From NCBI GenBank assembly GCA_964035015.1, contig OZ035998.1, positions 52,404,447-52,468,446 on the forward strand: a stretch of DNA of 64,000 nt, in the 5' to 3' direction. Position numbers and translations under genes: made by a program. Positions within the stretch are counted from its first letter, which is position 1, and every line of letters starts with the position of its first letter. The DNA comes from Corallium rubrum (Eukaryota > Cnidaria > Anthozoa > Scleralcyonacea > Coralliidae). Below the pieces are notes generated by a model. It worked only from the letters and a program-made list of their open reading frames with translations, was not told the origin of the DNA and ran no database searches. Of the stretch, positions 23,735 through 57,045 are shown one piece after another.

Positions 23735-23880
23735 TAGGTAATTTGTGCATGGCTTCTTTGTCGATATCAAATGAATAGTCGAGTCTTACTTAGTCTTCAC
23801 TGTCTGCTAGTTGTCGCTACGGCTAGCGAATTCACTCATGCGCAAACGTTTGGCAGCGGTGTTCATTCTTGTATACATGG
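23735..23880 (-). other. Left edge of duplicon copy 1
   Basis: TTTGTGCATGGCTTCTTTGTC and CATGCGCAAACGTTTGG are shared, in the same order, with 46430-46590 and with 51995-52615. There they lie downstream of galaxin-like genes C and D. This places the segment as the matching flank of gene B, separated from it by inserted elements. Confidence 0.65.
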
Positions 23881-24389
23881 ATCGAATACGTCTGAGTATT
23901 TTAATTTACCACCACCAGATCTGGAAGAGTATTTTGTTTGAAAGAATATAAACAACAACATAGCATAACAACAGTTTCTATATAACAGTTTATGAACTTT
24001 TTAAACAATTATGCATGAACACTTTAGCTTTACCTGACAATGACAACAATAATTTAAACAGTTTGACTAATTTGTGCTCATTGTATACATGTTTCTGACT
24101 TCAGTAAATTGCCAATGGCTAGTTTATTTCTTAATATAGTTTTCTCAAGTAAAGCCATCAGAATAGCATTTTTGCCGTTCTTGTATTCTAGAACATCAAC
24201 CAATTCCTGCGCGGTAATGTAATGTTTTATTTACCCATCTTAGGCATATAGAATTACAATGGATTTACATAAGAATATAGGAAATTACAAATATATATAG
24301 ACAAATATTAGAATTTTACAAAAATTGATAGGATGCTAATAAGGTAGTTAGTTTAAAAACATCAGCTGTATAAAGCTTTATAAAATAAG

Positions 24390-24745
24390 GTGCCCTCTAC
24401 GCACGCTCTGATTGACTGGGCTCCATGCATTTATAAGAGAACATAGATCATGAATGACGTAAAGTGGCGTAGAATGGCGTCAGCTGGCCGGAAAAGACCG
24501 CCAAATTCTAAAACTACCTCACTTTTAGTTTGATTTTTCTTATTATTATTTTATAAAACAAATAAAACATACCACTCCTGTGCATATGTACTCTTATAAA
24601 GGTACGTTTGACGTCATTTGAACACGAAAGAAGTGTAAAGGCACTCGGCTATCGCCTCGTGCCTCTACTCAACTTCTTTCGTGTTCAAATGACGTCAAAC
24701 GTGCCTTTATAAGAGTACATATGCACGGAGCTTTATGTTTTATTT
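24390..24745. mobile_element. Foldback element, GTACTCTTATAAAGG family (copy 1)
   Basis: GCATATGTACTCTTATAAAG and GTACGTTTGACGTCATTTGA at 24582 are mirrored by TTCAAATGACGTCAAACGTG and CCTTTATAAGAGTACATATG around 24690. The left flank TCTACGCACGCTCTGATTG recurs at 60700, where a full second copy lies. A third partial copy is at 62395-62470. Confidence 0.8.
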
Positions 24746-24835
24746 GTTAAATAAAAGAATCTATAAAAGTCTATATAGGCTGCAATAAAACTGAGGAAAC
24801 CTTCTGGAAAAAGGCGCGATTTTTCAGACGCCATT

Positions 24836-26907: not shown

Positions 26908-27089
26908 AACTATAATTGCTTGTTAAGGTTCTCTACTTGAGTTTTGTATGATATATACAATTAGTTCTTGTTGTAAACTAGCTAAATGGTTTATCTAAAC
27001 TAATAAACATTAGTTTTTCAATTTCATAATTATATGTTGATATAGGTAGTGTTGAACTCTACCACTTGTAGTCTCATATATTTCGACCG

Positions 27090-27200
27090 GAGTTCATGAA
27101 ATATAATGGAATTATATGACATAATGCATTATATGATATAATGAATTATATGACATAATGCATTATATCATATAATGCATTATATGACATAAATTAACTT
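27090..27200. repeat. AT-rich tandem palindromes
   Basis: ATTATATGACATAATGCATT and close variants are repeated about five times, and each is nearly self-complementary. This can extrude as a cruciform. No gene. Confidence 0.8.
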
Positions 27201-27287
27201 TGTCATAAACGTTTATTTGAAACAATTACTGTTGTGCAAATGAGTATTATCACATTATGTCGATCATATAATAAGAATACACAATAC

Positions 27288-27960: not shown

Positions 27961-27964
27961 CGCC

Positions 27965-28366
27965 TTCTGTGAATAAATCACATCTCCCTTCGTGGCCTCA
28001 AAATAACCTAGACTTATTATTCTTTAATAAAATGGTAAAACTAAAAAAATTATATGAAACAATATTTTTTGTTAGAGAATTATTTCAAACAATAAAAGTT
28101 AGCATTAATTTCATTATTTGACATAAAACCTGTTATATCAAATAATTATTGATATAATAAACAAATATAATTTCCGGACATTTGACACCCCATATATAGC
28201 TATATACTACACCCCTATTCACCCCAACAGACGTTATTCGATGCTATAAATTTATAATAATATGCATATTTGTTACTTTTGTGGTACACTTTTTCAACTT
28301 TTCCATGCATTTCATTTTTACCCAAAGAGCTTGTCACTGACAGTCGTGTGATAAACAGGCAAATAG
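27965..28366. other. Downstream flank of galaxin-like gene B
   Basis: From about 28190 the sequence matches the 3' flanks of genes C and D (ACAGACGTTATTCGATGCTA, CTTTTCCATGCATTTCATTT). Nearer 27965 it is AT-rich with no recognised gene. No clear AATAAA on the minus strand stands close to the stop. Confidence 0.5.
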
Positions 28367-29668
28367 TTATACCTCAAGAATCTTACCATCACAACAAACA
28401 TGAGACTGTGGATCATAGATTTCGTCGCCACAGCAAGAAGTATTGTTTCCATGATCTTTTATACTCAGAATTTTATCAACACAACAAACATGAGTTTTTG
28501 CACTGTAATTCATGTCACCACAACACAACGTCTGTCCACCAAACATACTCAGAACTTTCCCACCGCAGCAAAGGTGAGTTGTGGCATCATAGTTCTTATT
28601 CAAACAGCAAGAATTACCGCCGCCATGTTCATGTAAACTGATAATTGTATGATCACAGCAAACATGTGTTGTGTTATCATAGTTGGTACTGCCACAACAA
28701 GCCGTGCGTCCTGTAGCTGTGCTCAGTAAGTTATCAACACAGCAAACATGAGATTGAGGATTGAAGTTCTTGTCATCACAACACGCTGTATATACACCAT
28801 TTTTTCTCAGAATAGAACCACCACAACAAACGTGAGTCAGCGCATTATAGGCCACGTCATTACAGCAAGTTGTGCGTCCTTCTACTATTCTGAGAATCTT
28901 TTCATCACAGCAAACATGGGTGTTTGAATTGTAGTTATCTTGAACACAACAAGAGGTAGCCCCAGCTCCTATTGGTCGAATTTTCTCATCACAGCAAACG
29001 TGAGTTTTGGCATTATAGTTCATTGCACCACAACAAGAATTGCCACCATTTTCAATACTCAAAATTTTTCCAGCACAGCAAACATAGTACTTGGGATTAT
29101 AGACTTCGGTGCCACAACAAGCATTAGGTCCAGGTCTTCGTCTCCAAATTTGATCTTCACAGCAAATGTTGATTTTTGAATCATAGTTGTTGTCACCACA
29201 ACAAGAATTCAGACTACCATGTCGTGGAAGAATTTTATCTTTACAACAAATAAACAAGTTGGGTAGATAAAAGTTTCTATCACCACAGCAAGATCTGCGC
29301 TCGGGATCTGGAATAGGTTCAGGTTTTATCACGATAGCATTTGCTAAAAAATAAAGAATTATATACGAATAATTTAGTCCAGCAAGAGAGAAGACCACTC
29401 TGGTCCACATTGTTGTATGTGAAGGATTTTCTTCAAGCTATTGAAAAACATATATACTCTGATCTCCAAGCGAAAGTCAAACACACACGTACGATCCTCG
29501 CTTAAGGAAACTTACATTTTTTTCAGGTAAAATACCTCGCAGAATATACCTTCAAAACAATGAATTATAAATACTGAGTGAAAATACACCATATGCTGTA
29601 TGCTGTATGTCTGACTAACCTGTGAAGAATACGACAAACCACACGGCATAAACCAACAGATAATTCAT
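28367..29668 (-). CDS. Galaxin-like secreted protein B (two exons, 341 aa)
   Basis: Exons on the minus strand: 29668-29620 and 29343-28367, phase 1 intron of 276 bp. Exon 1 encodes a signal peptide, MNYLLVYAVWFVVFFT. The acceptor is TTTTTTAG|CAAATGCT. The mature protein starts near ANAIVIKPEPIPDPERR and carries 22 Cys-Cys pairs in 11 units, ending DGKILEV. Known: galaxin-type di-cysteine repeats of the coral skeletal matrix. I chose the split start because the signal exon is conserved at all three loci. A longer single-exon frame from 29410 reads through the intron only in this copy. The gene is convergent with protein A at 18.9 kb. Upstream it is bounded by the satellite at 30.01 kb. Confidence 0.9.
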
Positions 29669-30010
29669 TTCAGGGAGTGGTATAATTCCGACCAGTGTTA
29701 TGCCTGTAGCGGTATAAATTAGCGAGGTGCAAGAACGGTGGTGACAGTCCTGTGTCATTCGCGTACTGAGCTATACTCACTTTTTAGCTAGCAATAAATA
29801 GCGAAAGGAGAAACTGTTAATATTTGTATATGCCCGGCAATAATCATACCATAATGCGAGATTGACAAAGATCCTTTTTTCTACCTCCTTGACATTATAT
29901 TAAACTCAGTAACTTCACTTTGAGTACTCCATCACTACAAGTTTGGTTCGCAAGCAAATTTTAAAGTGCATCAAAAGAGTATCAAGCTTGTCTATGTGAA
30001 TGAGCTGTCA
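29669..30010 (-). promoter_or_regulatory. Conserved 5' flank of galaxin-like gene B
   Basis: About 340 bp upstream of the start codon match the flanks of genes C (48823-49170) and D (55958-56310). Shared words include CTGTGTCATTCGCGTACTGA and CATACCATAATGCGAGATTG (plus-strand reading). Homology stops at CTGTCAAAAAT, where the satellite begins. A core promoter was not identified; no clean TATA box stands in the right orientation. Confidence 0.5.
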
Positions 30011-33000
30011 AAAATTGTGGGCAGCACCGTAGTACGCCATTTAGCAACACTCATATAGCGAGTACTGGGCAGCACCGTAGTACGCCATTTCGCAACACCC
30101 ATATAGCTAGTAGTGGGCAGCACCGTAGTATGCAATTTCGCAACACCCATATAGCGAGTAGTGGGCAGCACCGTGATACGCAATTTCGCAACACCCATAT
30201 AGCGAGTAGTGGGCAGCACCGTAGTACGCAATTTCGCAACACCCATATAGCGAGTAGTGGGCAGCACCGTAGTACGCAATTTCGCAACACCCATATAGCG
30301 AGTAGTGGGCAGCACCGTAGTACGCAATTTCGCAACACCCATATAGCGAGTAGTGGGCAGCACCGTAGTACGCAATTTCGCAAAACCTATATAGCGAGTA
30401 GTGGGCAGCACCGTAGTACGCAATTTCGCAACACCCATATAGCGAGTAGTGGGCAGCACCGTAGTACGCCATTTAGCAACACTCATATACCGAGTAGTGG
30501 GCAGCACCGTAGTACGCCATTTTTAGCAACACTCATAGCGAGTAGTGGGCAGCACCGTAGTACGCTATTTCGCAAAACTCATATAGCGAGTAGTGGGCAG
30601 CACCGTAGCAACACTCATATAGCGAGTAGTGGGCAGCACCGTAGTACGCCATTTAGCAACACTCATAGCGAGTAGTGGGCAGCACCGTAGTACGCCATTT
30701 AGCAACACTCATAGCGAGTAGTGGGCAGCACCGTAGTACGCCATTTTCAGCAACACTCATAGCGAGTAGTGGGCAGCACCGTAGCAACACTCATATAGCG
30801 AGTAGTGGGCAGCACCGTAGTACGCCATTTTTAGCAACACTCATAGCGAGTAGTGGGCAGCACCGTAGTACGCCATTTAGCAACACTCATAGCGAGTAGT
30901 GGGCACCACCGTAATACGCCATTTAGCAACACTCATATAGCGAGTAGTGGGCAGCACCGTAGTACACCATTTCGCAACACTCATAGCGAGTAGTGGGCAG
31001 CACCGTAGAACACCATTTCGCAACACTCATAGCGAGTAGTGGGCAGCACCGTAGTACCCCATTTAGCAACACTCATAGCGAGTAGTGGGCAGCACCGTAG
31101 TACACCATTTCGCAACACTCATAGCGAGTAGTGGGCAGCACCGTAGTACCCCATTTAGCAACACTCATATAGCGAGTAGTGGGCAGCACCGTAGTACCCC
31201 ATTTTTAGCAACACTCATAGCGAGTAGTGCATGGGCAACACTGTAGTACGCCATTTAGCAACACTCATAGCGAGTAGTGGGCAGCACCGTAGTACGCCAT
31301 TTAGCAACACTCATAGCGAGTAGTGCATGGGCAGCACCGTAGTACGCCATTTAGCAACACTCATATAGCGAGTAGTGGGCAGCACCGTAGTACGCCATTT
31401 AGCAGCACTCATAGCGAGTAGTGGGCAGCACCGTAGTACGCCATTTAGCAACACTCATAGCGAGTAGTGCATGGGCAGCACCGTAGTACGCCATTTAGCA
31501 ACACTCATAGCGAGTAGTGCATGGGCAGCACCGTAGTACGCCATTTAGCAACACTCATATAGCGAGTAGTGGGCAGCACCGTAGTACGCCATTTAGCAAC
31601 ACTCATAGCGAGTAGTGGGCAGCACCGTAGTACGCCATTTTTAGCAACACTCATATAGCGAGTAGTGGGCAGCACCGTAGTACGCCATTTAGCAACACTC
31701 ATAGCGAGTAGTGGGCAGCACCGTAGTACGCCATTTTTAGCAACACTCATATAGCGAGTAGTGGGCAGCACCGTAGTACGCCATTTAGCAACACTCATAT
31801 AGCGAGTAGTGGGTAGCACCGTAGTACGCCATTTAGCAACACTCATAGCGAGTAGTGGGCAGCACCGTAGTACGCCATTTAGCAGCACTCATAGCGAGTA
31901 GTGGCCAGCACCGTAGTACGCCATTTAGCAACACTCATAGCAAGTAGTGGGCAGCACCGTAGTACGCCATTTAGCAACACTCATAGCGAGTAGTGGCCAG
32001 CACCGTAGTACGCCATTTAGCAACACTCATAGCAAGTAGTGGGCAGCACCGTGGTACGCCATTTAGCAACACTCATAGCGAGTAGTGGGTAGCACCGTAG
32101 TACGCCATTTAGCAACACTCATATAGCGAGTAGTGGGCAGCACCGTAGTACGCCATTTAGCAACACTCATAGCGAGTAGTGGGCAGCACCGTAGTACGCT
32201 ATTTCGCAACACTCATAGCGAGTAGTGGGTAGCACCGTAGTACGCTATTTCGCAACACTCATAGCGAGTAGTGGGTAGCACCGTAGTACGCCATTTAGCA
32301 ACACTCATAGCGAGTAGTGGGCAGCACCGTAGTACGCCATTTAGCAACACTCATAGCGAGTAGTGGGTAGCACCGTAGTACGCCATTTAGCAACACTCAT
32401 AGCGAGTAGTGGGCAGCACCGTAGTACGCCATTTAGCAACACTCATAGCGAGTAGTGGGTAGCACCGTAGTACGCCATTTAGCAACACTCATATAGCGAG
32501 TAGTGGGCAGCACCGTAGTACACCATTTCGCAACACTCATAGCGAGTAGTGGGCAGCACCGTAGTACACCATTTCGCAACACTCATAGCGAGTAGTGGGC
32601 AGCACCGTAGTACACCATTTCGCAACACTCATAGCGAGTAGTGGGCAGCACCGTAGTACACCATTTCGCAACACTCATAGGGAGTAGTGGGCAGCACCGT
32701 AGTACGCCATTTTTAGCAACACTCATATAGCGAGTAGTGGGCAGCACCGTAGTACGCCATTTAGCAACACTCATAGCGAGTAGTGGGCAGCACCGTAGTA
32801 CGCCATTTAGCAACACTCATAGCAAGTAGTGGGCAGCACCGTGGTACGCCATTTAGCAACACTCATAGCGAGTAGTGGGTAGTACCGTAGTACGCCATTT
32901 AGCAACACTCATATAGCGAGTAGTGGGCAGCACCGTAGTACGCCACTTAGCAGCACTCATAGCGAGTAGTGGGCAGCACCGTAGTACGCCATTTAGCAGC

Positions 33001-34620
33001 ACTCATAGCGAGTAGTGGGCAGCACCGTGGTACGCCATTTAGCAACACTCATAGCGAGTAGTGGGTAGCACCGTAGTACGCCATTTAGCAACACTCATAT
33101 AGCGAGTAGTGGGCAGCACCGTAGTACACCATTTCGCAACACTCATAGCGAGTAGTGGGCAGCACCGTAGTACACCATTTCGCAACACTCATAGGGAGTA
33201 GTGGGCAGCACCGTAGTACGCCATTTTTAGCAACACTCATAGCGAGTAGTGGGCAGCACCGTAGTACGCTATTTCGCAACACTCATATAGCGAGTAGTGG
33301 GAAGCACCGTAGTACGCCATTTAGCAACACTCATAGCGAGTAGTGGGCAGCACCGTAGTACGCCATTTAGCAACACTCATAGCGAGTAGTGGGCAGCACC
33401 GTAGTACGCCATTTAGCAACACTCATAGCGAGTAGTGGGCAGCACCGTAGTACGCCATTTAGCAACACTCATAGCGAGTAGTGGGCAGCACCGTAGTACG
33501 CCATTTAGCAACACTCATATAGCGAGTAATGGGCAGCACCGTAGTACCCCATTTTTAGCAACACTCATAGCGAGTAGTGCATGGGCAACACCGTAGTACG
33601 CCATTTAGCAACTATAGTGCATGGGCAGCACCATAGTACGCCATTTAGCAACACTCATATAGCGAGTAGTGGGCAGCACCGTAGTACGCCATTTTCAGCA
33701 ACACTCATAACGAGTAGTGCATGGGCAGCACCGTAGTACGCCATTTTCAGCAACACTCATAACGAGTAGTGCATGGGCAGCACCATAGTACGCCATTTAG
33801 CAACACTCATAGCGAGTAGTGGGCAGCACCGTAGTACGCCATTTAGCAACACTCACAGCGAGTAGTGGGAAGCACCGTAGTATGCCATTTAGCAACACTC
33901 ATATAGCGAGTAGTGTGCAGCACCGTATTACGCCATTTAGCAACACTCATAGCGAGTAGTGGGCAGCAGCGTAGTACGCCATTTAGCAACACTCATAGCG
34001 AGTAGTGGGCAGCACCGTAGTATGCCATTTAGCAACACTCATATAGCGAGTAGTGTGCAGCACCGTAATACGCCATTTAGCAACACTCATAGCGAGTAGT
34101 GGGCAGCACCGTAGTACGCCATTTAGCAACAGTCATATAGCGAGTAGTGGGCGGCACCGTAGTACGCCATTTAGCAACACTCATAGCGAGTAGTAGGCAG
34201 CACCGTAGTACGCCATTTTTAGCAACGCTCATAGCGAGTAGTGGGCAGCACCGTGAGTACGCCATTTAGCAACACTCATAGCGAGTAGTGGGCAGCAGCG
34301 TAGTACGCCATTTAGCAACACTCATATAGCGAGTACTGGGCAGCAACGTAGTACGCCATTTAGCAACACTCATATAGCGAGTAGTGGGCAGCGCCGTAGT
34401 TCGCCATTAGCAACACTCATAGCGAGTAGTGGGCAGCACCGTAGTACGCCATTTTGCAACACTCATATAGCGTGTAGTGTGCAGCACCGTAATACGCCAT
34501 TTAGCAACACTCATATAGCGAGTAGTGGGCAGCACCGTAGTACGCCATTTAGCAACACTCATAGCGAGTATTGGGCAGCACCGTAGTATGCCATTTTTTG
34601 CAAAAGCACTCATACTGGCA
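30011..34620 (+). repeat. 46/48-bp satellite, about 99 units (4.6 kb)
   Basis: The unit is GTGGGCAGCACCGTAGTACG followed by CCATTTAGCAACACTCATAG and CGAGTA. A 48-bp form carries ATAGCG doubled as TATAGCG, and others add CATG or TT. The first ~0.4 kb is nearly pure 48-bp units with CGCAATTTCGCAACACCC. Further on, 46-bp units dominate, in mixed blocks. Because 48 is divisible by three, several frames on both strands stay open for 100-180 codons. These are not genes: no start context, conserved domain or exon signal supports them. Confidence 0.97.
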
Positions 34621-35491: not shown

Positions 35492-35567
<76 letters not shown>

Positions 35568-35820: not shown

Positions 35821-36030
35821 TCTCTATTAAATAGATCAAACCTGCACCTCAACAAAAATGGTGATAGAGTTTTAGGAAAGGCATTCTGTGAATATTTAAG
35901 GTCACTAAGACTAGCTTCTAGTAATCCTGCTCCAAATGAGCATTTTTTATGGTTACGCCCAAGTCCCTCAGGCGAAAGGAGGGAGTGGATGAAGTATCTA
36001 GAACATGTGTCACGCGTGACCAGGTTGTAG
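35821..36030 (+). pseudogene. LINE ORF1 remnant, SGNH/esterase-like end
   Basis: Seen: an open frame of 69 codons ending at TAG 36028-36030, starting SLLNRSNLHLNKNGDRVLGK. It overlaps the beginning of the endonuclease frame at 35949. Known: SGNH hydrolase domains close with a D-x-x-H-L-N-x-x-G helix, and some CR1-group LINEs carry such an esterase in ORF1. Inference: the H-L-N-x-x-G block is that end. It is truncated at its 5' side. Confidence 0.5.
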
Positions 36031-38452
36031 ATAGTTATTCTGATTTTTCTGAAACAGTTGTGAGTAGCGATTTTTGCAAAAACCTTAATTCTATTCCCAA
36101 CCAACGAGGTTTTAAAATGGCTTTTCTGAATATTGTTAGTTTACCAAAGAAATTTGATGAAGTAAATTTCTCAATGTCTAACAAGCTCCTTGATGTTATG
36201 GCCTTTAATGAAACCAGGCTTGATCCCTCAATACCAAATAGCATGATTCACATTGATGGGTATGATATTGTTAGAAAAGATAGATCAAGGAGAGGGGGTG
36301 GTGTTTGTATTTACCTGCATAGCTCCATTAATTACCATATCAGGCATGATCTTGTGCCATCTGAATTAGAGGCTGTTTGCATCGAAATTATTAAACCGCA
36401 TAATCAGCCTTTTTTTATTGTTTCAGTGTATAAACCCCCTGGGGCTTCATCTGATTTTTTTACCCTTTTTGAAAGCTTAATTCAAGCTACTGATGATGAA
36501 AACAAAGAAGTAATCATTCTTGGCGATCTTAATTGTGACTTACTAAAGACAAATTCTGACCAAGCAACTAAGACATTGAAATCACTATATGAAATGTATC
36601 AACTATCACAATTGATTAGTGAAGCTACATGAGTAACTATGACCACTGCTAGTCTTCTTGATCATATTGTTACCAGAAAAAATTTGCAACTCTGGTGTTA
36701 TTCATACAGGTATCAGTGATCACAGTCTGATATTTGCAATTAGAAAAATTAATATCAATGACTAAAAAGCACCAGAGAAACATTATTGAAATTAGAAATA
36801 TGAAAAATTTCCAAGAAGAACAATTTCTTTCTGACCTAGGAAATCAACCCTGGGAGTATGTTTATAACTTTTTTGCTGATGATCCCAATAGTATGTGGGA
36901 CATTTGGAAGCAATTATTTCTAGAGATTTTGAACAAACATGCACCCTTACAAAGCAAAAAGATAAAGTCAAATAGAATCCTATAATCAATTATATGATTA
37001 CTTAACCGAAAATGAACTACTTTCTGAAAACCAGTTTGGTTTTAGAAAATTCCATTCCACTGCAACTGCATTATTAGATTGTACAAACAGTTGGTATGTA
37101 AACATGGATAGAAAGTTGTTTAATTTGGTAGTATTCATAGATTTAAAAAAAGCCTTTGATACAGTGGATCACCAAATGTTACTTAAAAAACTAGAACTGT
37201 ACGGAATCAAAGGGAATGCCTTTTTACTATTGAAATCATATCTATCTGACCGAAACCAAAAATGTCGAGTAAATGGATTTGTTTCATCTGAGCACAGGAT
37301 TAAATGTGGTGTTCCTCAGGGCCCAATCTTAGGGCCATTGTTCTTTTTGTTATATATAAATGATTTGCCACAGTGCTTAAATGAAACGAAATCCCGATTA
37401 TTTGCTGATGACACAAATTTAACAGCCTCAGGTGAGATGATAAGTGATGTTGAAGTTAAAATGAACTCAGATTTAGAAAACCTCAGAAAATGGTTAATAG
37501 CCAACAAACTTAGTCTAAATGTTGCAAAAACTGAATTTATGTTGATTGGATCAAAGCCAATGATAGGTAAAGCCTCAGATTTCCAGATTAAAGTAAATAT
37601 AAATAATAACCCAATTAAAAAAGTTTTGGAATGCAAAACTCTAGGAGTAACTGTTGACCAACATTTGTCCTGGAAAAAAAATACTGAAAATCTCTGCAAA
37701 AAAAATCACATCAGGGTTAAGTGCTCTCCGTCGTCTGAGGGCATTTGTCGACAGAGACTCGCTTCTTTCCGTCTACAATGCAATTATTCAACCCTACTTT
37801 ATCTACTGTTGTGAAGTATGGAATGTTTTTGGCGAAACGCTGTCAACACGTCTGCAAAAACTTCATAACAGAGCTGCTAGAATTATTACATATACGAGCA
37901 ATGAAGTCGATCACAAAATTGTGTTAAGTGAATTGGGATGGCAACCACTCCAAACACAAAGAATAAAAGCCAAGGCTAAGATTATGTTTAAAATTTTAAA
38001 TAATATGGGACCAAAGAGTCTCACAAACCTTTTTAGTTACAAAAAGGAGATGTCAAGTTACGAGACATCTCATCTACCGTTTGTTTGCCGCAACCACGCA
38101 CAAACAGCATGAAAAAGAGTTTCATGTTTGATGGAGCATCCATATGGAATTCTTTGCCCAAAGAAATTAGGGAAAGCAAATCTCTGTCGATCTTTGAACG
38201 CAAAATCGCTACTCATGACATGAAGTAATGTGTATGTAAATAAAGTATGTAAATAATTAAATTATATTACTATATTACCTAGATACTTTACTGACATTTT
38301 TAACTACTTAAACTTCTATTTTTTACTATTGCTATATTCTATACTTTTTATTTCTCTTTATTGTTGTACACGCCCTTCGTGGAAACCAGCTTTTGTTGAC
38401 GTCGTTAGCGTGTTTAAATAAAATTTTCTATCTATCTACCTATCTATCTAAC
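35949..38452 (+). pseudogene. CR1/L2-like LINE ORF2, internally deleted and frameshifted
   Basis: Seen: an AP endonuclease from about 36111 (MAFLNIVSL, GGVCIYL, VSVYKPPG, GDLNCDL) to a stop at 36630, continued in another frame by SGVIHTGISDHSLIF. After a deletion at about 36980 comes reverse transcriptase: NQFGFRKFHSTATA, FIDLKKAFDTVDH, GVPQGPILGPLFF, LFADDTNL. After a frame change near 37680 comes a C-terminal part (IIQPYFIYCCEVWN, SIWNSLPKEIRES) to 38228. Known: APE then RT with F-A-D-D and no RNase H suits the Jockey/CR1/L2 group. The 3' end is a short TCTA microsatellite at 38424-38452. It is dead. Confidence 0.88.
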
Positions 38453-40439: not shown

Positions 40440-40975
40440 TCAAGGCTTTCTTGCTTGGCGGCGTATGGGTGCAAGAATTAACCTGGCAGAAAGCAAAGAC
40501 GAAGCGCACAAAGAAAAAAACTTATGGTGCAAAAAAAGTTAACAAAAGAAGTTTCCAAATGCTATTACTGCACGCAAAAGATTGTGGTTAAGTGTTTGGG
40601 TACCAGTCTGGTCTTGTTAAACACATTGTCTGCGAGTGCATATAAACATTGAACAATTTATAATGTATAAAATTTGAGGATACTTCCAGTATAGTTTTTC
40701 CTGCTGAGCATCCGTCCCGTGGGCCTGCATAGGACGTCTTTCGAGCTTGCTGTTACAATCGTCAGTCATTGTACGTTTTGTCAGCATTCGTCAACAACAA
40801 CGAACACATTTGTCTGATTAAGTTTTATTGTTTTACGTTTCTAAGAGATTTAGATTTTTCAACTTGTTCTCAACTCTCTTCCATCGAGTGGTGTCTCCCT
40901 GTGACATGCAGGTAAAATTGTCTGGCGTTATATACCCATGCATACATACATATATATATATATATAGTTAAATAC
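40440..40975. other. Duplicon block shared with 56560-57040
   Basis: GGGTGCAAGAATTAACCTG, GGTACCAGTCTGGTCTTGTT and TGAGCATCCGTCCCGTGGGC are found in the same order at both places. No conserved open frame spans both copies, so I treat it as non-coding duplicated flank. Confidence 0.7.
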
Positions 40976-43680: not shown

Positions 43681-44024
43681 TATTCATAGTCATATATACG
43701 TGCTCGTAAGTGGTAGCGTTTGCATATGAGCTTTAGTTAAAGTGATCTGATGAGTTGTACGTGTACGTATACATGTAGTGTATGTGGTACATTTACGAGC
43801 TTAAACGTACTACATGTATACGCACAACTAATCATATACAATATAACATACTACACATGCTTCACTTAATAATTTGTTAAGTTTGTTTAGTTTGAGTTAT
43901 GTGATATTAATTCACTACACAGATAACGACTGATCAGAATGTCACCACTAACACATTGGTCCCTGTGCAACAACTGTCATAAGCTATTATGTCAGTCAAT
44001 GTTTCTGAAAACAGAACTCAGAAG

Positions 44025-44507
44025 TAGTTGCATTTTTTGCAACTGGTCCTGGTTTGGTCTTAAAATGTATATATTCTACACTCGAATTTTCCTTCACCCA
44101 AAATCCTTAGAACATGCTATGTAATCGAGTGAAATGCCCAATATCACTTATAATATACCCAATTCTCTCCTGGCATTACCACCTTATATATACAGAACTC
44201 GCGATCAAGCTCTCGGCAACGGCCTCCGTGGCTCAGTGGTCAGAGCATTGCACTAGTATCGCAAGGTCGTGGGTTCAATTCCTGCCGGAAGGCCTGTGTA
44301 GTTGCATTTTTCGCAACTGGTCCCGGTTTGGTCTTAAAATGTATATATTCTACACTCGAATTTTCCTTCACCCAAAATCGTTAGAACATGCCATGTAATC
44401 GAGTGAAATGCCCAATATCACTTATAATATACCCAATTCTCTCCTGGCATTACCAACCTTATTATATATACAGAACTCGCGATCAAGCTCTCGGTAACAC
44501 CCTCCGT
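44025..44507 (+). mobile_element. tRNA-derived SINE in tandem (array 1)
   Basis: A ~200-bp body (GTTTGGTCTTAAAATGTATA ... CTCGCGATCAAGCTCTCGG) is present twice. Between the two, at 44221-44294, lies a tRNA-like head: GGCCTCCGTGGCTCAGTGGT ... GGTCGTGGGTTCAATTCCTG ... GGAAGGCC. The head folds into a cloverleaf of sorts, but its anticodon stem has a mismatch and the copies vary in the loop, so it is not a functional tRNA gene. A second array lies at 51170-51640. Confidence 0.75.
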
Positions 44508-46342: not shown

Positions 46343-47520
46343 CCCTCCGTGGTCAGAGCATTGTACTAGAAACGCAAGGTCGTGGGTTCAATTCCTGCCG
46401 GAAGGCCTATGTAGTATAAAATATAATTTGTGCATGGCTTCTTTGTCAATATTGTAACATATTCTGAAATTCCCCCTTCGTAATTTTCATGCCACTTTTT
46501 TTAAACACAAATGAAGTCGAGTCTTACGGCTACTTCCCACTTCTCTTCCAGTGTTTACGCTAGCAAATTCACGCATGCGCAAACGTTTGGTGTTGCTATA
46601 CAAAGTCTTCACAATCCATGGTACGAGGCTGCAGTGAATTTTGAAAGCAGTTTTCTTGGGCAGCCACTGCCCAGGGAAAGCTGGTCCTGGGTACTCCGAC
46701 TGGGTGTTGCATAATATGGCATATATAGACCAAATTAGGAGTGGGCGCTAAATTTGGACGAGGGCGATTATTTAAAAGAACGAAAAAAATTAAAGTTTTT
46801 TTAAAATGGCCCGAAAAGAAATAAAACAAATTTTCTAGAAAGTAAAATATATCAACTGCACAAACTTCATTTACCATTTCACAAATAATTATCATTGCAA
46901 CAATGATTATATCGTACATATTCTTTATACGTTGTTCTATAGTTTGCTTATGATCCTTCTGTGGATTACAAATTAATTATATTATTATTATTTTTATATC
47001 ATGATGGTTATTTGGGGTGTCCAATGCAGACAAATTATACCACACACGTTTTCCGTGACACTTGGAATATTGAGCAAACACTGAACAGTATCGTATCTTT
47101 GGAATGCAAATTGCTGAATTATATTTGTTGTTTTTCTTTGAGTTGACATTAAATGATAAACACAAATCAACTTTTGTTTACGATGCACGAGCAAGTATTT
47201 GTCATCATAATTAAGTTTTCAACACTGACACTTGGGCTTCGAATTGGGACGTTGCGCAGTTTCATTCAAAACTTGTGTGGTTATAATTTTGTCCTTAATT
47301 TCGGTCGCCATATATTTCTCAGTTAGATATTGAGGACCGCAAGCTAACTATATATAGCTAACGTACTACACCCTATTCACCTCAACAGACGTTATTCGAT
47401 GCTATAAATTTATAATAACATATGTGTTACTTTTGTGGTATACTTTTTCAACTTTTCCATGCATTTCATTTTTACCCAAAGAGCTTGTCACTGACAGTCG
47501 TGTGATAAACAGGCAAATAG
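46343..47520 (-). other. Downstream flank of galaxin-like gene C
   Basis: It starts with the rest of the split SINE head, then TTTGTGCATGGCTTCTTTGT. Most of it matches the flank of gene D at 51.98-54.67 kb, apart from the elements inserted there. Several short frames are shared by both copies but are not conserved as proteins in any recognisable way. No gene is called. Confidence 0.55.
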
Positions 47521-48822
47521 TTATACCTCAAGAATCTTACCATCACAACAAACATGAGACTGTGGATCATAGATTTCGTCGCCACAGCAAGAAGTATTGT
47601 TTCCATGATCTTTTATACTCAGAATTTTATCAACACAACAAACATGAGTTTTTGCACTGTAATTCATGTCACCACAACACAACGTCTGTCCACCAAACAT
47701 ACTCAGAACTTTCCCACCGCAGCAAAGGTGAGTTGTGGCATCATAGTTCTTATTCAAACAACAAGAATTACCGCCGCCATGTTCATATAAACTGATAATT
47801 GTATGATCACAGCAAACATGTGTTGTGTTATCATAGTTGGTACTGCCACAACAAGCCGTGCGTCCTGTAGCTGTGCTCAGTAAGTTATCAACACAGCAAA
47901 CATGATATTGAGGATTGAAGTTTTTGTCATCACAACACGCTGTATGTACACCATCTTTTCTCAGAATAGAACCACCACAACAAACGTGAGTCAGCGCATT
48001 ATAGGCCACGTCATTACAGCAAGTTGTGCGTCCTCCTACTATTCTGAGAATCTTTTCATCACAGCAAACATGGGTGTTTGAATTGTAGTTATCTTGAACA
48101 CAACAAGAGGTAGCCCCAGCTCCTATTGGTCGAATTTTCTCATCACAGCAAACGTGAGTTTTGGCATTATAGTTCATTGCACCACAACAAGAATTGCGAC
48201 CATTTTCAATACTCAAAATTTCTCCATCACAGCAAACATAGTACTTGGGATTATAGACTTCGGGGCCACAACAAGCATTAGGTCCATGTCTTCGTCTCCA
48301 AATTTCATCTTCACAGCAAATGTTGATTTTTGAATCATAGTTGTTGTCACCACAACAAGAATTCAGACTACCATGTCGTGCAAGAATTTTATCTTCACAA
48401 CAAATGAATAAGTTGGGTAGATAAAAGTTTCTATCACCACAGCAAGATCTGCGCTCAGGATCTGGAATAGGTTCAGGTTTTATCACGATAGCATTTGCTA
48501 AAGAAATAAAGAATTATATATGAATAATTTAGCCCAGCAAGAGAGAAGACCACTCTGGTCCACATTGTTGTATGTGAAGGATTTTCTTCAAGCTATTGAA
48601 AAACATATATATATACTCTGATATCCAAGCGAAAGTCAAACACACACATATACGATCCTCGCTTAAGGAAATTTACATTTTTTTCAGGTAAAATACCTCG
48701 CAGAATATATCTTCAAAACAATGAATCATAAATACTCAGTGAAAATACACCATATGCTGTATGTCTGACTAACCTGTGAAGAATACGACAAACCACACGG
48801 CATAAACCAACAGATAATTCAT
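47521..48822 (-). CDS. Galaxin-like secreted protein C (two exons, 341 aa)
   Basis: Exons on the minus strand: 48822-48774 and 48497-47521, phase 1 intron of 276 bp. The signal exon is identical in protein to that of gene B. The mature part has the same 22 Cys-Cys pairs in 11 units and the same end, DGKILEV. Differences from B are single residues between the CC pairs, such as FICCEDK for FICCKDK, LARHG for LPRHG, and QYHVCC for QSHVCC. No Cys is lost. Both splice sites are intact and there is no stop in frame, so it looks functional. Here the intron cannot be read through in frame because of one extra base before the acceptor. Confidence 0.9.
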
Positions 48823-49170
48823 TTCAGGGAGTGGTATAATTCCGACCAGTGTTATGCCTGTGGGTATAAATTAGCGAGATACAAGAACGGTGGTGACAGT
48901 CCTGTGTCATTCGCGTACTGAGCTATACTCACTTTTTAGCTAGCAATAAATAGCGAAAGGAGAAACTGTCAATTATTTGTAATATACGCCCTGCAATAAC
49001 CATACCATAATGCGAGATTGACAAAGAACCTTTTTTCTACCTCCTTGACATTATATTAAACTCAGTTATCTAACTTTGAGTACTCCATCTCTACAAGTTT
49101 GGTTTGCAGGCAAATTTTAAAGTGCATAAAAAGAATATTAAGCTTGTCGCATGTGAATGAGCTCTCAAAA
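48823..49170 (-). promoter_or_regulatory. Conserved 5' flank of galaxin-like gene C
   Basis: It matches the flanks of B and D over about 340 bp and, against D, runs on past the point where the satellite cuts copy B (GAGCTCTCAAAAATGATAAA). The last bases before the ATG (CACTCCCTGAAATG on the minus strand) resemble those of gene A. Confidence 0.5.
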
Positions 49171-49855
49171 ATGATAAAAAATGGCTCTTTCGTATCTCAC
49201 ATTCAAGTCCTTGAGATATTTAGATTGTTTTTAAGTGAAATGAGATAACCAAAGAACAAATAAGGACATTATTATTAGCTCATGTATTTTAATTTTCCCC
49301 TTTTCAAGTTTGTTTTTCTGAGTTCTGAGCCGCTATATTGAGCCTTCGTTAAACATATGACGTGATTATAAGTTTGTTTAACCAAATTATTGGCCGAGCT
49401 GGAATAATAGACATGCACTTCCCGAATTTGCTTCAGTAAGCTCGAACAACGACTTGAAATCGAAGTTAAATCGAGGAACAATAAATGCATTACGATCTCA
49501 TTGCCTATCTCGACTTGGAGTCATTGTTTCGTGGGCATTGAAGCGAATTTGGGTAGTGTCCATTTGTTTTTCTAATAACGACTCCTTTTTTGTTGCTCAC
49601 ATTCAAAATACATGGGAGTGGTTAGACGAGGCGAGCAGTTAGGCTGGTTAACCAAATTTTAATTAGAAACCCAGTCACAAAAAACAAATACTAAATTTAA
49701 TTTAGATGCAAACTAACGTAACCGGTCGATTCAATTCTCCTCTTGTTGCCAAAATTCGAAAAATTAAATTGACTCGATCTGGCACAGTTGACCAGAGCTC
49801 ATGTAAATATAACACCTGCATAATTTCACAGTTTTTTCCCATACAGGCATGCATG

Positions 49856-49893
<38 letters not shown>

Positions 49894-50155
49894 ACAAGTT
49901 CTGTTTCATTCGAGTATTTCTCTTAAAAGAAAAAGGTTTGATGGTTTCAGTATACCACAAGACTAAGATTCAATATATTGTTTTGTTTCTTTGCTGTTGG
50001 TTGTGGTTGCTTCAATTTCGTATATTACGCTTGTGGCGTAAAAGTATATTGGGCACTTTGTGACTTTAGTGCAGGGGAATTTACTCTTGTTTGCGGTTTC
50101 CCTTATATAATTCGTATTTGAAAAGCGGAACAGCTCTAGTTTATATATATGACTG
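49171..50155. other. Duplicon flank, no gene recognised
   Basis: The stretch matches parts of 56310-56560 (CACTTTGTGACTTT, ATTTGAAAAGCGGAACA), with extra sequence present only here. An (AT)n tract lies at 49859-49889. Short frames have no domains. Confidence 0.5.
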
Positions 50156-50159
50156 CCCA

Positions 50160-50430
50160 CACTGTTATTAAATTTCAAAGAGTTAATTTGACTCTAAAAG
50201 TGGAGTTAAAAAAAAGGTACAGAATAACTCCTTTTCTGGAGTTATTTTTTACTCCAACATTTTCACTCCATTTTCGCAGTAAGCATAACTCCAAAATGGA
50301 GTAACAATAACTCCTATAGGAGTAGATAGTACTCCAGAATTGGAGTACAAATAGCAATAATTTGACTCCAGAACCGGAGTAAAAAGTAAATACACCAGAT
50401 AACTCCTTTTGTGGAGTTAAATATTTATTT
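50160..50430. repeat. GGAGTTA/TAACTCC palindrome cluster (copy 2)
   Basis: Words such as TAACTCCTTTTCTGGAGTTA and ACTCCAGAATTGGAGT follow one another in both orientations for 270 bp, as at 39860-40260. Confidence 0.8.
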
Positions 50431-51169: not shown

Positions 51170-51640
51170 AGGTCTTAAAATGTATATATTCTGCACTCGA
51201 ATTTTCTTTCACCCAAAATCCTTAGAACACGCCATGTAATCGAGTGAAATGCCCAATATCACTTATAATAAACCCAATTCTCTCCTGGCATTACCACCTT
51301 ATTATATATACAGAACTCGCGATCAAGCTCTCGGCAACGGCCTCCGTGGCTCAGTGGTCAGAGCATTGCACTAGAATCGCAAGGTCGTGGGTTCAATTCC
51401 TGCCGGAAGGCCTGTGTAGTTGCATTTTTCGTAACTGGTCCCGGTTTGGTCTTAAAATGTATATATTCTACACTTGAATTTTCCTTCACCGAAAATCCTT
51501 AGAACATGCTATGTAATCGAGTGAAATGCCCAATATCACTTATAATATACCCAATTCTCTCCTGGCAATTACCACATTATATATACAGAACTTGCGATCA
51601 AGCTATCGGCAACACCCTCCGTGGCTCAGTGGTCAGAGCA
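51170..51640 (+). mobile_element. tRNA-derived SINE in tandem (array 2)
   Basis: It has the same body and head as array 1: a tRNA-like head at 51339-51412 and a second, cut head at 51616-51645 whose rest lies at 51932-51981. The cut is caused by the MITE at 51643-51930. Confidence 0.75.
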
Positions 51641-51642
51641 TA

Positions 51643-51930
51643 GATAATGGAAGGGGAACTGGATAGGAAACTTCAAACGAGGTTAAAGAACCGGAAACGT
51701 TGTTTGCACAACTTGCTATGGTAATTACACACTTAAAAGCAGCTAATGCACCTATTGCTGAAATTAGACAAAAGTGTAATATCACTTAAGTTCAGCAGTG
51801 TCTGATTTTAGCCATGTGGGACCACCTGTTAGGTGCCCGCTTATAAGTGTATAATTACCATAGCAAGTTGTGCAAACATCGTTTCCGGTTTCGTAAGTTT
51901 CCTATCCAGTTCCCCTTCCATTATCTACGG
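51643..51930. mobile_element. MITE with TAGATAATGGAAGGGGAACT termini (copy 2), in a SINE head
   Basis: The ends match the element at 42824-43134, but the interior is in opposite orientation. GGTCAGAGC stands on both sides (at about 51634 and 51932) as the target duplication. This dates it after the SINE. Confidence 0.85.
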
Positions 51931-52093
51931 TCAGAGCATTGTTCGCAAGGTCGGTGGGTTCCATTCCTGCCGGAAGGCCTGTGTAGTATAAAATATAATT
52001 TGTGCATGGCTTCTTTGTCAATTTTGTAACATATCCTGAAATTTCCCCCTAATTTTCATGCCACTTTTTTAAACACAAATGAATAGTCGAGTC

Positions 52094-52485
52094 TTAAGGT
52101 GGATTTCCATTCAGTGCTTTTTGTCGCGCGATCGACGATTTGCGACCGCTTTCTTTTGTCTTGTGGGCTCTGGACTGGATCCGTTCCACCCGAGGGCTCA
52201 TGAGACAAAGAAAGCGATCGCAAAAAGTCGCTCGCTCGACAAAAAAAGCTGAATGGAAATCCGCCTTTAAGGCGGTTTTCCACTAGGCGAAAAATGTCGC
52301 GCGAAGCGACATTTTCTTTTGTCTCGCAAGCTCTCGAGTGGAACTAATTAGCCAAGACAAAAGAAAAATGTCGAGTCGGTCGACAAATGTCGCCTAGTGG
52401 AAAACCGCCTTTAAGCTGGATTTCCATTCGGTGCATTTTGTCGCGCGATCGACTTTTTGCGATCGCTTTCTTTTGAATTGTGGGT
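52094..52485. mobile_element. Row of short inverted-repeat elements (GGATTTCCATTC and GGTTTTCCACTAGGCG families)
   Basis: First AAGGTGGATTTCCATTCAGT to GAATGGAAATCCGCCTT (52096-52268), then AAGGCGGTTTTCCACTAGGC to GCCTAGTGGAAAACCGCCTT (52268-52411), then a third left arm (GCTGGATTTCCATTCGGTGC). TAA at the junctions suggests a TAA/TTAA target. The second family recurs at 59352-59502. The stretch is absent from duplicon copy 2. Confidence 0.8.
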
Positions 52486-53043
52486 TATCAAGCGGAACGC
52501 ATTTCATTAGCTTTGGTTGAATACACACATTTTCATAACCACCTTTACGGCTGCTTCCCACTTCTCTTCCAATGTTTACGCTAGCAAATTCACGCATGCG
52601 CAAACGTTTGGCAGTGGTGTTGCTATATAAAGTCTTCACAATCCATGGTTCGAGGCTGCAGTGAATTTTGAAAGCAGTTTTCTTGGGCAGCCATGCCCAG
52701 GGAAAGCTGGTCCTGGGTACTCTGACTGGGTGTTGCATAATATGGTATAAATAGACCAAATTAGGAGTGGGCGCTAAATTTGGACAAGGGCGTTTATTTA
52801 AAAGAACGGAAGAAACTAAAGTTTTTTTAAAATGGCCCAAAAAGAAATAAAACAAACTTCCTAGAAAGTAAAATAAATCAACTGCACAAACTTCATTTAC
52901 CATTTCACAAATAATTATCATTGCAACAATGATTATATCGTACATATTCTTTATACTTTGTTCTATAGTTTGCTTATGCATGATCCTTCTTTGCATTACA
53001 AATTAATTATATTATTATTATTTTTATATCATGATGGTTATTG

Positions 53044-54163
53044 AAGCCTGGTTTTCATATGTCGCCGATCGTCGGCGATTTGTGATTTAGATGCATGTTA
53101 AAATGGGAAGTGCAGCAGCATGTTAAGTAATAAAGCAACCTCGTCCCCAGGGCCATTTGTGGGGGCTGGGACAAGATGGCGGCCAAGAACAAATGGCCCT
53201 GGCACAGGCTGAGCTATCACCACATTTGATTGGTTGAGATAACTTTGGATGTTTTAGGTATTCTGATTGGTGGAAACAAGGCGGGCGGCAGGCTAACTCG
53301 CGGGCATTTGCTTTTTGGGCTCAAAGTATATTCAGAATTGCCGGCTGTTAAAAAACAACTTCGAAATGAATGAAAATGTGAGGAAAGCTTTCGAAACACC
53401 CGTGAAAACATCGGAAGAATATGTAATGATGGGTCGTGTCGCCTCTGTGCCCTGGCTGCCATACAACGAAGTCCATGGGACGGCAATTCAGTGTGTTTTC
53501 TAAATCGGGCGAACGAAAGACTTGGTGAACAAAGTCAAAAAGTATTTTGGCTGCGAAAGGAAAGTACACCACAGGGCAGAATTTACATGTTTGGCCATGA
53601 AGAAGCAGGCTTTTTTCAAACAAGAGTTCTCGACGAAACGAAGCCTAAATGTTTTTCAAAACGCTGAATTGAATCCACCGAAAACTTACGAAAACAAGGC
53701 GGCCCGGCCAGACAACGGCAATCCAGTTTCTTGCGAATTTGGTACAACGGTGAAGCAAATGATAAATAATAAGGATTTACAGATATTTATTAAAAGTGTA
53801 TTTATTTTAATAATTCGACAATGTATTTGGAAATGATGTTTTGATTGTTTTCAGTTTGGGTCAGTCAAGCTGAACCAAATATTCAGAAAATAATTGAGCC
53901 TGACTAGGCGCGATAAACTTCGTGAAGCCTGGGCCGAGTCAAAAATGAGTCAAAATATGACTCATTTTTTGCAGCCTGTGCCAGGGCCATTTGTTCCCGC
54001 CATTTTGTTTTTGGCCGCCATCTTGGCCCAGCCCCCACAAATGGCCCTGGGGACGAGGTTGGTAATAAAGAACAATGCAGAAAAGCAGTGCTTTTATTCT
54101 TTTACTTAACATGCATCTAAATCATGGGTCGGCGACGATCGGCGACATATGAAAACCAGGCTT
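53044..54163. mobile_element. Inverted-repeat element absent from the sister duplicon, with a nested MULE-like element
   Basis: AAGCCTGGTTTTCATATGTC is mirrored by GACATATGAAAACCAGGCTT. In duplicon copy 2 the same place (around 47015) reads straight through GGTTATTTGGGGTGTCCAAT, so the insertion came after the duplication. The 926-bp element at 53136-54061 sits inside it. Confidence 0.85.
53136..54061. mobile_element. MULE-like non-autonomous element, 926 bp, 9-bp target duplication
   Basis: CAACCTCGTCCCCAGGGCCA is mirrored by TGGCCCTGGGGACGAGGTTG, with homology inwards over AAGATGGCGGCC. GTAATAAAG is duplicated at 53127-53135 and 54062-54070. The interior carries two consecutive plus-strand frames (53315-53503; 53522-53836) separated by one stop, reading NENVRKAFETPVKTSEEYVM and MINNKDLQIFIK among others. 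These do not resemble a MULE transposase. They may be captured host sequence, which I cannot show. Confidence 0.85.
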
Positions 54164-54669
54164 TACGGTGTCCAATGCAGACAAATTATACCACACACGT
54201 TTTCCGTGACACTTGGAATATTGAGCAAACACTGAACAGTATCGTATCTTTGGAATGCAAATTGCTGAATTATATTTGTTGTTTTTCTTTGAGTTGACAT
54301 TAAATGATAAACACAAATCAACTTTTGTTTACGATGCACGAGCAAGTATTTGTCATCATAATTAAGTTTTCAACACTGACACTTGGGCTTCGAATTGGGA
54401 CGTTGCCAGTTTCAATCAAAATTTGTGTGGTTATTATTTTGTTCTTAATTTCGGTTGCCGTATATTTCTCAGTTAGATATTGAGGACCGCAAGCTAACTA
54501 TATATAGCTAACGTGCTACACCCTATTCACCTCAACAGACGGTTATTCGATGCTATAAATTTATAATAACATATGTTACTCTTGTGGTACACTTTTTCAA
54601 CTTTTCCATGCATTTCATTTTTACACGAAGAGCTTCTCACTGACGTTCTTATGATAAACACGCAAATAG

Positions 54670-55957
54670 TTATACCTCAAGAATGTTACCATCACAACAA
54701 ACATGAGACTTTGGATCATAGATTTCGACCCCACAGCAAGAAGTATTGTTTCCATGATTTTTTATACTCAGAATTTTATCACGACAACAAACATGAGTTT
54801 TTGCACTGTAATTCATGTCACCACAACACAACGTCTGTCCACCAAGCATACTCAGAACTTTCCCGCCGCAGCAAAGGTGAGTTGTGGCATCATAGTTCTT
54901 ATTCAAACAGCAAGAATTACCACCCCAATGTTCGTATAAATTGATAATTGTATGATCACAGCAAACATGTGTTGTGTTATCATAGTTGGTACTGCCACAA
55001 CAAGCTGTGCGTCCTGTAGCTGTGCTCAGTAAGTTATCAACACAGCAAACATGATATTGAGGATTGAAGTTCTTGTCATCACAACACGCTGTATGTACAC
55101 CATTTTTTCTCAGAATAGAACCACCACAACAAACGTGAGTCAGCGCATTATAGGCCACGTCATTACAGCAAGTTGTGCGTCCTCCTACTATTCTGAGAAT
55201 CTTTTCATTACAGCAAACATGGGTGTTTGAATTGTAGTTATCTTGAACACAACAAGAGGTAGCCCCAGCTCCTATTGGTCGAATTTCTTCATCACAGCAA
55301 ACGTGAGTTTTGGCATTATAGTTCATTGCACCACAACAAGAATTGCGACCATTTTCAATGGTCAAAATTTCTCCAGCACAGCAAACATAGTACTTGGGAT
55401 TATAGACTTCGGTGCCACAACAAGCATTATGTCCATGTCTTCGTCTCCGAATTTGATCTTCACAGCAAATGTTGATTTCTGAATCATAGTTGTTGTTACC
55501 ACAACAAGAATTCAGACTACCATGTCGTGGAAGAATTTTATCTTGACAACAAATAAACAAGTTGGGTAGATAAAAGTTTCTGTTACCACAGCAAGATCTG
55601 CGCTCAGGATCTGGAATAGGTTCAAGTTTTATCACGATAGCATTTGCTAAAAAAATAAAGAGTTATTATGAATAATTTAGTCCAGCAGGAGAGAAGACCA
55701 CTCTGGTCCACATTGTTGTATGTGAAGGACTTTCTGCTATTGAAAAACATATACTCTGATCTCCAAGCGAAAGTCAAACACACACGTACGATCCTCGCCT
55801 AGGAAACTTACATTTTTCGCAGGTAAAATACCTCGCAGAATATATCTTCAAAACAATGAATTATAAATACTCAGTGAAAATACACCATATGCTGTATGTC
55901 TGACTAACCTGTGAAGAATACAAGAAACCGCACGGCATAAACCAACAGATAATTCAT
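54670..55957 (-). CDS. Galaxin-like secreted protein D (two exons, 341 aa)
   Basis: Exons on the minus strand: 55957-55909 and 55646-54670, phase 1 intron of 262 bp. The signal peptide differs slightly from B and C (AVRFLVFF for AVWFVVFF), which puts one Arg in the hydrophobic core. The mature part again has 22 Cys-Cys pairs in 11 units, ending DGNILEV. It carries more replacements than C does relative to B (CCGNRN, CCGNNN, HWGGN, MLGGQ), so D is the most diverged of the three. Splice sites and frame are intact. In this copy the intron contains a stop in the read-through frame. Confidence 0.9.
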
Positions 55958-56310
55958 TTCAGGGAGTGGTATAATTCACCAGTGTTATGCCTGTAGGGTA
56001 TAAATTAGCGAGATGCAAGAACGCCGGTGACAGTCCTGTGTCATTCGCGTACTGAGCTATACTCACTTTTTAGCTAGCATAAATATAGCGAAAGGAGAAA
56101 CTGTCAATTATTTGTATACGCCCTGCAATAACCATACCATAATGCGAGATTGACAAAGAACCTTTTTTCTACCTCCTTGACATTATATTAAACTCGTTAC
56201 TTCACTTTGAGTCCTCTCATCACTACAAGTTTGGTTTGCAGGCAAATTTTAAAGTGCATCAAAAGAATATTAAAGCTTGTCGCATGTGAATGAGCTGTCA
56301 AAAATGATAA
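55958..56310 (-). promoter_or_regulatory. Conserved 5' flank of galaxin-like gene D
   Basis: It matches the flanks of B and C, including AGCTATACTCACTTTTTAGC and CATACCATAATGCGAGATTG in plus-strand reading. Homology with copy C continues to about 56400. Confidence 0.5.
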
Positions 56311-57045
56311 AAAAATTACTCTTTCATTATCTCACATTCAAGTCCTTGAGATATTTAGACTGTTTTTAAGTGAAATGATTATTAGCTCATGTACTTTTTT
56401 TCCCTTTTCAAGTTTGTTTGTTTTTCTGAATTTGTGGTTGCTCACATTCAAAATACATGGGAATGGTCACTTTGTGACTTTGGTAGAAGATGCATTTACT
56501 CTTTCTTGTTCGCGGTTTGCCATTATATAATTAGTATTTGAGAAGCGGAACAACTCCGTGCTATGGGTGCAAGAATTAACCTGACAGAAAGCAAAGACGA
56601 AGCGCACAAAGAAAAGATTGCACGTAAAAGATTGTGGTTAAATGTACAAGTCGCCATCTTTTTCGGTACGGTCAATTGGGTACCAGTCTGGTCTTGTTAA
56701 ACACATTGTCTACGAGTTGCATATAAACATTGAACAATTTATAATGTATAAAATTTGAGGATACTTCCAGTATAGTTTTTCTTGCTGAGCATCCGTCCCG
56801 TGGGCCTGCATAGGACGTCTTTCGAGCTAGCTGTTACAATCGTCAGTCATCGTACGTTTTGTCAGCATTCGTCAATAACAACGAACACATTTATCTGATT
56901 AAGTTTTATTGTTTTGCGTTTCTAAGAGATTTAGATTTTTCAACTTGTTCTCAATTCTCTTCCATCGGGTGGAGTCTCCCTGTGACATGCAGGTAAAATT
57001 GTCTGGCGTTATACCCATACGCATAGTTAAATACATGAGACTCGA
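56311..57045. other. Right end of duplicon copy 3
   Basis: The sequence matches 50050-50140 and then 40450-40975 without the GGAGTTA cluster. No gene was seen. Homology ends near the CATAGTTAAATACATGAG at 57021-57038. Confidence 0.6.

Follow-up and report, generated by a model that had tools for sequence, protein, structure and literature searches.

Tandem triplication of intact galaxin-family genes, with indicated sequence exchange between two of the copies, in an octocoral genome

Introduction

Conci and co-workers are said to have separated galaxin sensu stricto from its relatives by an RXRR site. In the available portions of the reports cited throughout this text, galaxin sensu stricto is a stony-coral clade that contains the skeletal galaxins and is set apart by a propeptide RXRR endoprotease motif (PMC6824150), galaxin-like proteins are found also in animals without skeletons (PMC12419799), and the axial skeleton and sclerites of red coral contain a pair of galaxin-like proteins, in which double di-Cys motifs number 10 and 11 (PMC7853314). 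Here we describe three galaxin-family genes, B, C and D, that lie in tandem in a window of 64,000 nucleotides (the whole stretch of DNA analysed; contig OZ035998.1 of assembly GCA_964035015.1, positions 52,404,447 to 52,468,446), together with a more distant relative, gene A. The family was known already, and what is new here is another tandem set of galaxin-related genes, in an octocoral.

The locus can be compared with several described systems. As with the galaxin and galaxin-like genes that adjoin each other in A. millepora, and with the sequential calcarins of Sycon, B, C and D are neighbouring duplicated genes for di-Cys proteins that are predicted to be secreted; in contrast to calcarins of a single orthogroup, whose identity is 25-36% (PMC12419799), exon 2 of B and of D is 96% and 93% identical to that of C. 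Galaxea galaxin and Amgalaxin are secreted proteins of similar length (Amgalaxin has 338 amino acids), with di-Cys repeats of about 30 residues and similar Cys content (PMC2726143), from which B-D differ in their lack of a propeptide RXRR and in their octocoral host. The red coral proteins share an octocoral source with A-D, and their 10 and 11 double di-Cys motifs fit the 20 Cys-Cys (CC) pairs of A and the 22 of B-D, in a comparison of counts and not of sequences; tandem copies go unmentioned in the available part of that report (PMC7853314). Tandem duplicates make up 29.9% and 32.6% of the genes of two reef corals, in an account that calls gene conversion rare in corals (PMC10236652), whereas one exchange is indicated here.

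Results

Three intact genes with a common core

Genes B, C and D (Table 1) are homologues that lie next to each other on the same strand and have noncoding flanking sequence in common, the arrangement that defines a tandem duplication, and their reading as a tandem triplication of intact galaxin-family genes is supported. The gene models bear out the shared first exon, intron position, length and number of CC pairs that the initial annotation had described: exon 1 has 49 nt in each gene, exon 2 is equal in length, and a phase-1 GT-AG intron at the same position measures 276, 276 and 262 bp in B, C and D. The three genes are also intact, as had been claimed, with neither a stop nor a frameshift in the coding frames of B, C and D. 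Single Cys residues are absent from the three proteins, every Cys being part of a CC pair, and the pairs are spaced by 11-15 residues in B-D and by 11-14 in A. All four proteins, A to D, match the Pfam family Galaxin_repeat (PF24748) at 317.6-342.1 bits against a curated cut-off of 28; all four also exceed the cut-off of 25 for IGFL (PF14653; 27.6-61.8 bits), far more weakly and over the same Cys-rich stretches. The N-terminus is hydrophobic, the 11-residue mean hydropathy reaching 2.69 in B and C on this measure only, and the net charge of the mature chain is -4 in B, -9 in C and -2 in D. A sequence search of the PDB with the C protein gave no match at E<=1.

Self-comparison of the window, which had been proposed as a check, revealed the homology of B, C and D, noncoding sequence included, and delimited a common core of about 1.8 kb. 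Pairwise differences within it number 54/1810 between B and C (BC), 94/1800 between B and D (BD) and 75/1801 between C and D (CD), or 3-5%, and the alignments have E = 0, which excludes chance; the BD count varies with the alignment, from 94/1800 in the pairwise to 80/1798 in the three-way version (14/208 plus 66/1590). When a 2.3-kb query taken from the C unit was searched against the 474-Mb assembly, with 27 of 27 candidates scored, long matches were confined to the window and numbered three: the C unit itself, D along the full query, and B at query positions 335-2157. The three-fold tandem duplication first proposed therefore stands as three copies with a core of about 1.8 kb, but the 33-kb span is not one segment repeated three times. 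Its description as recent has only loose support: a divergence of 3-5% does not point to a very recent event, and exchange may have reset the similarity of B and C.

The flanks had been described as matching in the same order around all three genes, and this holds in part. C and D have collinear flanks at about 46.4-47.35 and 51.9-54.5 kb and again at 49.17-49.32 and 56.31-56.43 kb, a distal upstream block is common to B and D, and CATACCATAATGCGAGATTG is present at all three copies, as stated. The distal block has long genome matches at its two places only (40 of 1231 candidates scored), and the interval between it and the B core holds the 46-bp satellite and a LINE-like (long interspersed nuclear element) reverse transcriptase. 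The remaining proposed markers fared differently. The TTTGTGCATGGCTTC edge, taken as a common flank marker, lies inside the dispersed repeat in the 3' flank of C, which has at least 44 matching stretches (query and D included), the others at 77-95%, with 40 of 1824 first-look candidates scored in this search. The 23742 TTTGTGCATGGCTTC site of B is best read as a separate insertion, the shared block of B starting at 28192; a left edge of B at 23742 as duplicated flank was considered and is rejected on account of the dispersed repeat, only short alignment islands linking this region to C and D. The GGGTGCAAGAATTAACC block, assigned to all three copies, is confined to B and D, with sites at 40467 and 56565 and none near C even with 4 mismatches. 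The GGAGTTA cluster of C lies in another dispersed repeat (at least 48 other stretches, 70-96%; 40 of 191 candidates scored), and the cluster of B matches that of C weakly, at 67% and inverted; what survives of this marker is the absence of the exact motif around D.

Repeats and elements were also observed around the genes. The 46-bp satellite lies about 350 bp upstream of the B start codon and makes the upstream region of B unlike those of C and D. At 35940-38112 lies a degraded LINE-like element in which the frames that match endonuclease and reverse transcriptase are broken. Another element, characterised by direct repeats about 200 bp long, precedes C (44024-44507) and D (51171-51641), with 18/449 differences between the compared stretches.

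Octocoral host and relation to skeletal galaxins

One contig of the assembly, C129 (97,394 bp), is a rearranged mitochondrial concatemer with repeat offsets of about 18.9 kb. It carries cox1, nad, cob and other genes, whose names were read by eye from translations and of which Pfam confirmed cox1 and mutS; the MutS homologue lies beside cox1 (PF00488 E=2e-29, PF05192 4e-13, PF01624 3e-5), and one tRNA-Met was found in four C129 loci scanned with the bacterial code. According to the available part of Figueroa and Baco, mutS occurs only in octocorals, and four mitochondrial genomes measure 18.7-19.0 kb and have one tRNA (PMC4316637). From mutS and the mitochondrial genome we therefore take the genome to be that of an octocoral, and a stony-coral origin is rejected on mitochondrial mutS; a tube anemone had been another early candidate (PMC6465557). 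C129 also holds cox1 copies both intact and broken, and in it cob adjoins cox2 in a junction that resembles the one described in Anthomastus (PMC4316637). A PDB search with the cox1 protein did not discriminate between hosts. A search for fluorescent proteins gave one exon-sized match above the cut-off, at 42.6 bits, which is uninformative alone.

One reading, in line with the initial annotation, sees in the locus a true skeletal-matrix galaxin that has recently expanded in tandem, with a higher dosage for biomineralisation as the result. Membership of B-D in the galaxin-repeat family agrees with this, as do the adjacent galaxin genes of A. millepora (PMC12419799) and the red coral axis and sclerite proteins, whose numbers of double di-Cys motifs match the CC counts of A and of B-D (PMC7853314); a skeletal link drawn from matching CC counts is only a lead. 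Against it stand an octocoral rather than a stony-coral host, the occurrence of galaxin-like proteins in animals without skeletons (PMC12419799), and the absence of a propeptide RXRR from A, B, C and D. B and C have no RXRR at all, in D the only such site is RRRR, within the repeats at residues 83-86, and A has RKTR at 38. Octocoral mitochondrial mutS in the assembly would likewise set A-D outside the scleractinian-only clade of galaxin sensu stricto. Judged by the RXRR motif, A-D would be classed as galaxin-related and not as galaxin sensu stricto. The label of skeletal-matrix type is thus not established; upstream contexts differ among the copies, so that equal dosage is not implied, and we consider this reading unlikely.

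Probable sequence exchange between two of the copies

The nearest neighbour of C switches along the alignment. In the columns before 216, upstream of the genes, differences are 20/209 for BC, 14/208 for BD and 8/210 for CD, and C is nearest to D; from column 216 onward they are 34/1601, 66/1590 and 69/1591, and C is nearest to B. The shift at column 216 is significant for BC (p=7e-7) but not for BD (p=0.11) or CD (p=0.86), and for BC it is seen at noncoding sites alone (20/209 before versus 16/575 after column 216, p=1.7e-4). The maximum chi-squared test was significant for B versus D sites (p=1e-4) and for C versus D sites (p=0.008). B and C are also identical at 17 consecutive polymorphic sites, a run with p=1e-4 when the full alignment is considered and p=0.0013 from column 216 onward. 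Only BC changes along the copies, which is not expected from selection alone, and we therefore infer conversion or crossing-over. The aligned sequences thus indicate a probable exchange between B and C.

A neighbour switch and a long identical BC run are also what would be seen if the duplication were old and ongoing concerted evolution kept the gene-bearing core alike in all three copies. Homogenisation of the core relative to its flanks was considered from the BD distal block, where 60/474 differences compare with 94/1800 in the core (p=9e-8), and was rejected, the excess lying in a replaced patch of 67 columns (39/67). The patch, which contains a piece of a dispersed repeat, was excluded once its position was known from the genome search, and the rest of the block, at 21/407, is as diverged as the noncoding core (41/772, p=1.0). 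CD differences are even along the core and number 9/121 just outside it (p=0.10 versus core), and gene conversion is apparently uncommon in coral tandem arrays, as far as the available part of one report goes (PMC10236652). General homogenisation of the three copies is, in our judgement, improbable. The C/D stretch 50050-50136 (17/87) and the last windows of the long C/D alignment, which show high divergence and ragged alignment, were not used. A literature search found no paper pairing "galaxin" with "gene conversion".

Selection on the coding sequence

Pairwise ratios of nonsynonymous to synonymous change (dN/dS, or Ka/Ks), another of the checks proposed, were 0.67 for BC, 0.71 for BD and 0.50 for CD by NG86, a range of 0.50-0.71 across the three pairs. 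Maximum likelihood gave about 1.22, 0.70 and 0.48 for the same pairs, and YN00 about 1.07 for BD and 0.64 for CD, so that dN/dS depends on method and ranges from about 0.5 to 1.2. Positive selection was considered and is not supported by tree-based nonsynonymous and synonymous counts.

Values near 1 are what would be expected of copies drifting towards pseudogenes, with no function beyond one of them. In contrast, the 1026 coding columns are free of indel runs, whereas the 815 noncoding columns contain 23 (p=6e-9). No Cys is changed (0/44) among 32 variable residues (hypergeometric 0.0095), and under neutral simulation the probability of no hit on a Cys and no stop is 0.086 for BC, 0.005 for BD and 0.0035 for CD. 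Decay of this kind is very unlikely; it appears instead that the reading frame and the disulfide pattern are kept under selection, and that other residues drift near neutrality.

Assembly and neighbouring sequence

An assembly duplication, in which a single locus appears three times through haplotypes left uncollapsed or repeats joined wrongly, is highly improbable and not favoured: the mitochondrial concatemer shows that the assembly does contain repeat errors, but the window has no Ns, the copies are 3-5% diverged, they carry copy-specific insertions and a block confined to B and D, and an outer flank probe (8001-9500) has a full-length match to itself only (40 of 3896 candidates scored), its remaining matches being mainly to its inner repeat of about 330 bp, with copies elsewhere at 95-98%.

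Gene A is a diverged paralogue of B-D, its exon 2 being 43% identical to that of C and its intron having the same phase. A protein query found 36 matching stretches on seven contigs of the assembly. Another local family cluster lies on contig C13 at 7.10-7.64 Mb, with five large galaxin-type CC-rich open reading frames of 602-673 amino acids and 42-45 CC pairs. Elsewhere in the window, 12499-13701 is a 1.2-kb array of about 99 copies of a TAAACTAAACTA-type 12-bp unit, and 8517-8850 is a young dispersed element of about 330 bp, with dozens of copies at 95-98% identity among the matches listed.

Table 1. Positions of the galaxin-family genes, duplicated blocks and repeats in the window
Feature	Positions	Strand	Details
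Gene A	18868..19930	+	exon 1 18868-18913, exon 2 18999-19930; 325 amino acids, 20 CC; PF24748 E=1.9e-103
Gene B	28367..29668	-	exon 1 29668-29620, exon 2 29343-28367; 341 amino acids, 22 CC; PF24748 E=4.7e-96
Gene C	47521..48822	-	exon 1 48822-48774, exon 2 48497-47521; 341 amino acids, 22 CC; PF24748 E=5.2e-96
Gene D	54670..55957	-	exon 1 55957-55909, exon 2 55646-54670; 341 amino acids, 22 CC; PF24748 E=7.1e-96
Core unit, copy B	28192..30015		self-alignment; 46-bp satellite begins at 30017
Core unit, copy C	47350..49172		self-alignment and genome DNA search
Core unit, copy D	54500..56305		self-alignment and genome DNA search
46-bp satellite	30017..34596		about 98 copies, directly upstream of B core; Tandem Repeats Finder (TRF)
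Distal upstream block, copy B	40464..40955		10.4 kb from B core; matches D 56562-57036
Distal upstream block, copy D	56562..57036		carries a dispersed-element piece of about 60 bp, 56619-56678
3' flank of C	46351..47349		also present at D (51929-54499, interrupted there by additional inserts); includes a dispersed repeat at 46424-46590
1.1-kb insert, 3' flank of D	53043..54163		terminal inverted repeats, 76% over 194 columns; empty site in C at about 47012

Discussion

It is likely, taking the account as a whole, that an octocoral galaxin-related gene was tandemly tripled, that the flanks of the copies were then broken up, that B and C exchanged sequence, and that the product is an exported structural matrix protein. 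B, C and D would go back to a single gene for a secreted galaxin-related protein, from which two rounds of tandem duplication, probably through unequal recombination at repeats, produced the three copies. Transposable elements and the satellite array would then have broken up the flanks, and later the gene-bearing stretch of B and C may have been exchanged by conversion or crossing-over. A putative signal peptide would send the protein out of the cell, where its 11 double Cys-Cys units may fold into hairpins linked in a chain by disulfide bonds, an arrangement that AlphaFold models suggest for galaxins (PMC12419799). Such a protein could serve as a structural component of the extracellular matrix, possibly of sclerites or axis.

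Several points weigh against parts of this account. The breakpoint at column 216 was located by scanning, the maximum chi-squared test found no breakpoint in B versus C sites (p=0.72), and the identical-run test gave p=0.65 for BD and 0.08 for CD. The three genes also have no close outgroup copy by which the B/C exchange could be given a direction or an age. On the three-branch tree dN/dS is 0.78, from 33 nonsynonymous and 14 synonymous changes that leave out one three-state codon site (p=0.40 versus neutrality), and since dN/dS does not differ from 1, constraint beyond the frame and the Cys residues is unproven. The mitochondrial contig that points to an octocoral is in the same assembly but separate from the contig of the window.

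A more specific proposal can be made, namely that B-D are the octocoral counterpart of a red coral sclerite and axis galaxin, that the gene tripled within the lineage and that recurrent gene conversion maintains the similarity of the copies, with selection on the disulfide frame only and surface charge diverging. We regard this as speculative and rather improbable.

The stony-coral reading of the locus is corrected here to an octocoral one. Tandem expansion of the galaxin family, known in a stony coral and a calcareous sponge from the available part of PMC12419799, thereby extends to an octocoral, in a group whose skeleton formation has been argued to have evolved independently (PMC7853314). 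The B/C exchange would be a small counter-example to the rarity of gene conversion described for coral gene arrays in the portion available of that report (PMC10236652). With a Cys frame that appears to be kept and other positions that appear near-neutral, the three genes would form a clean set for asking what such proteins need in order to work.

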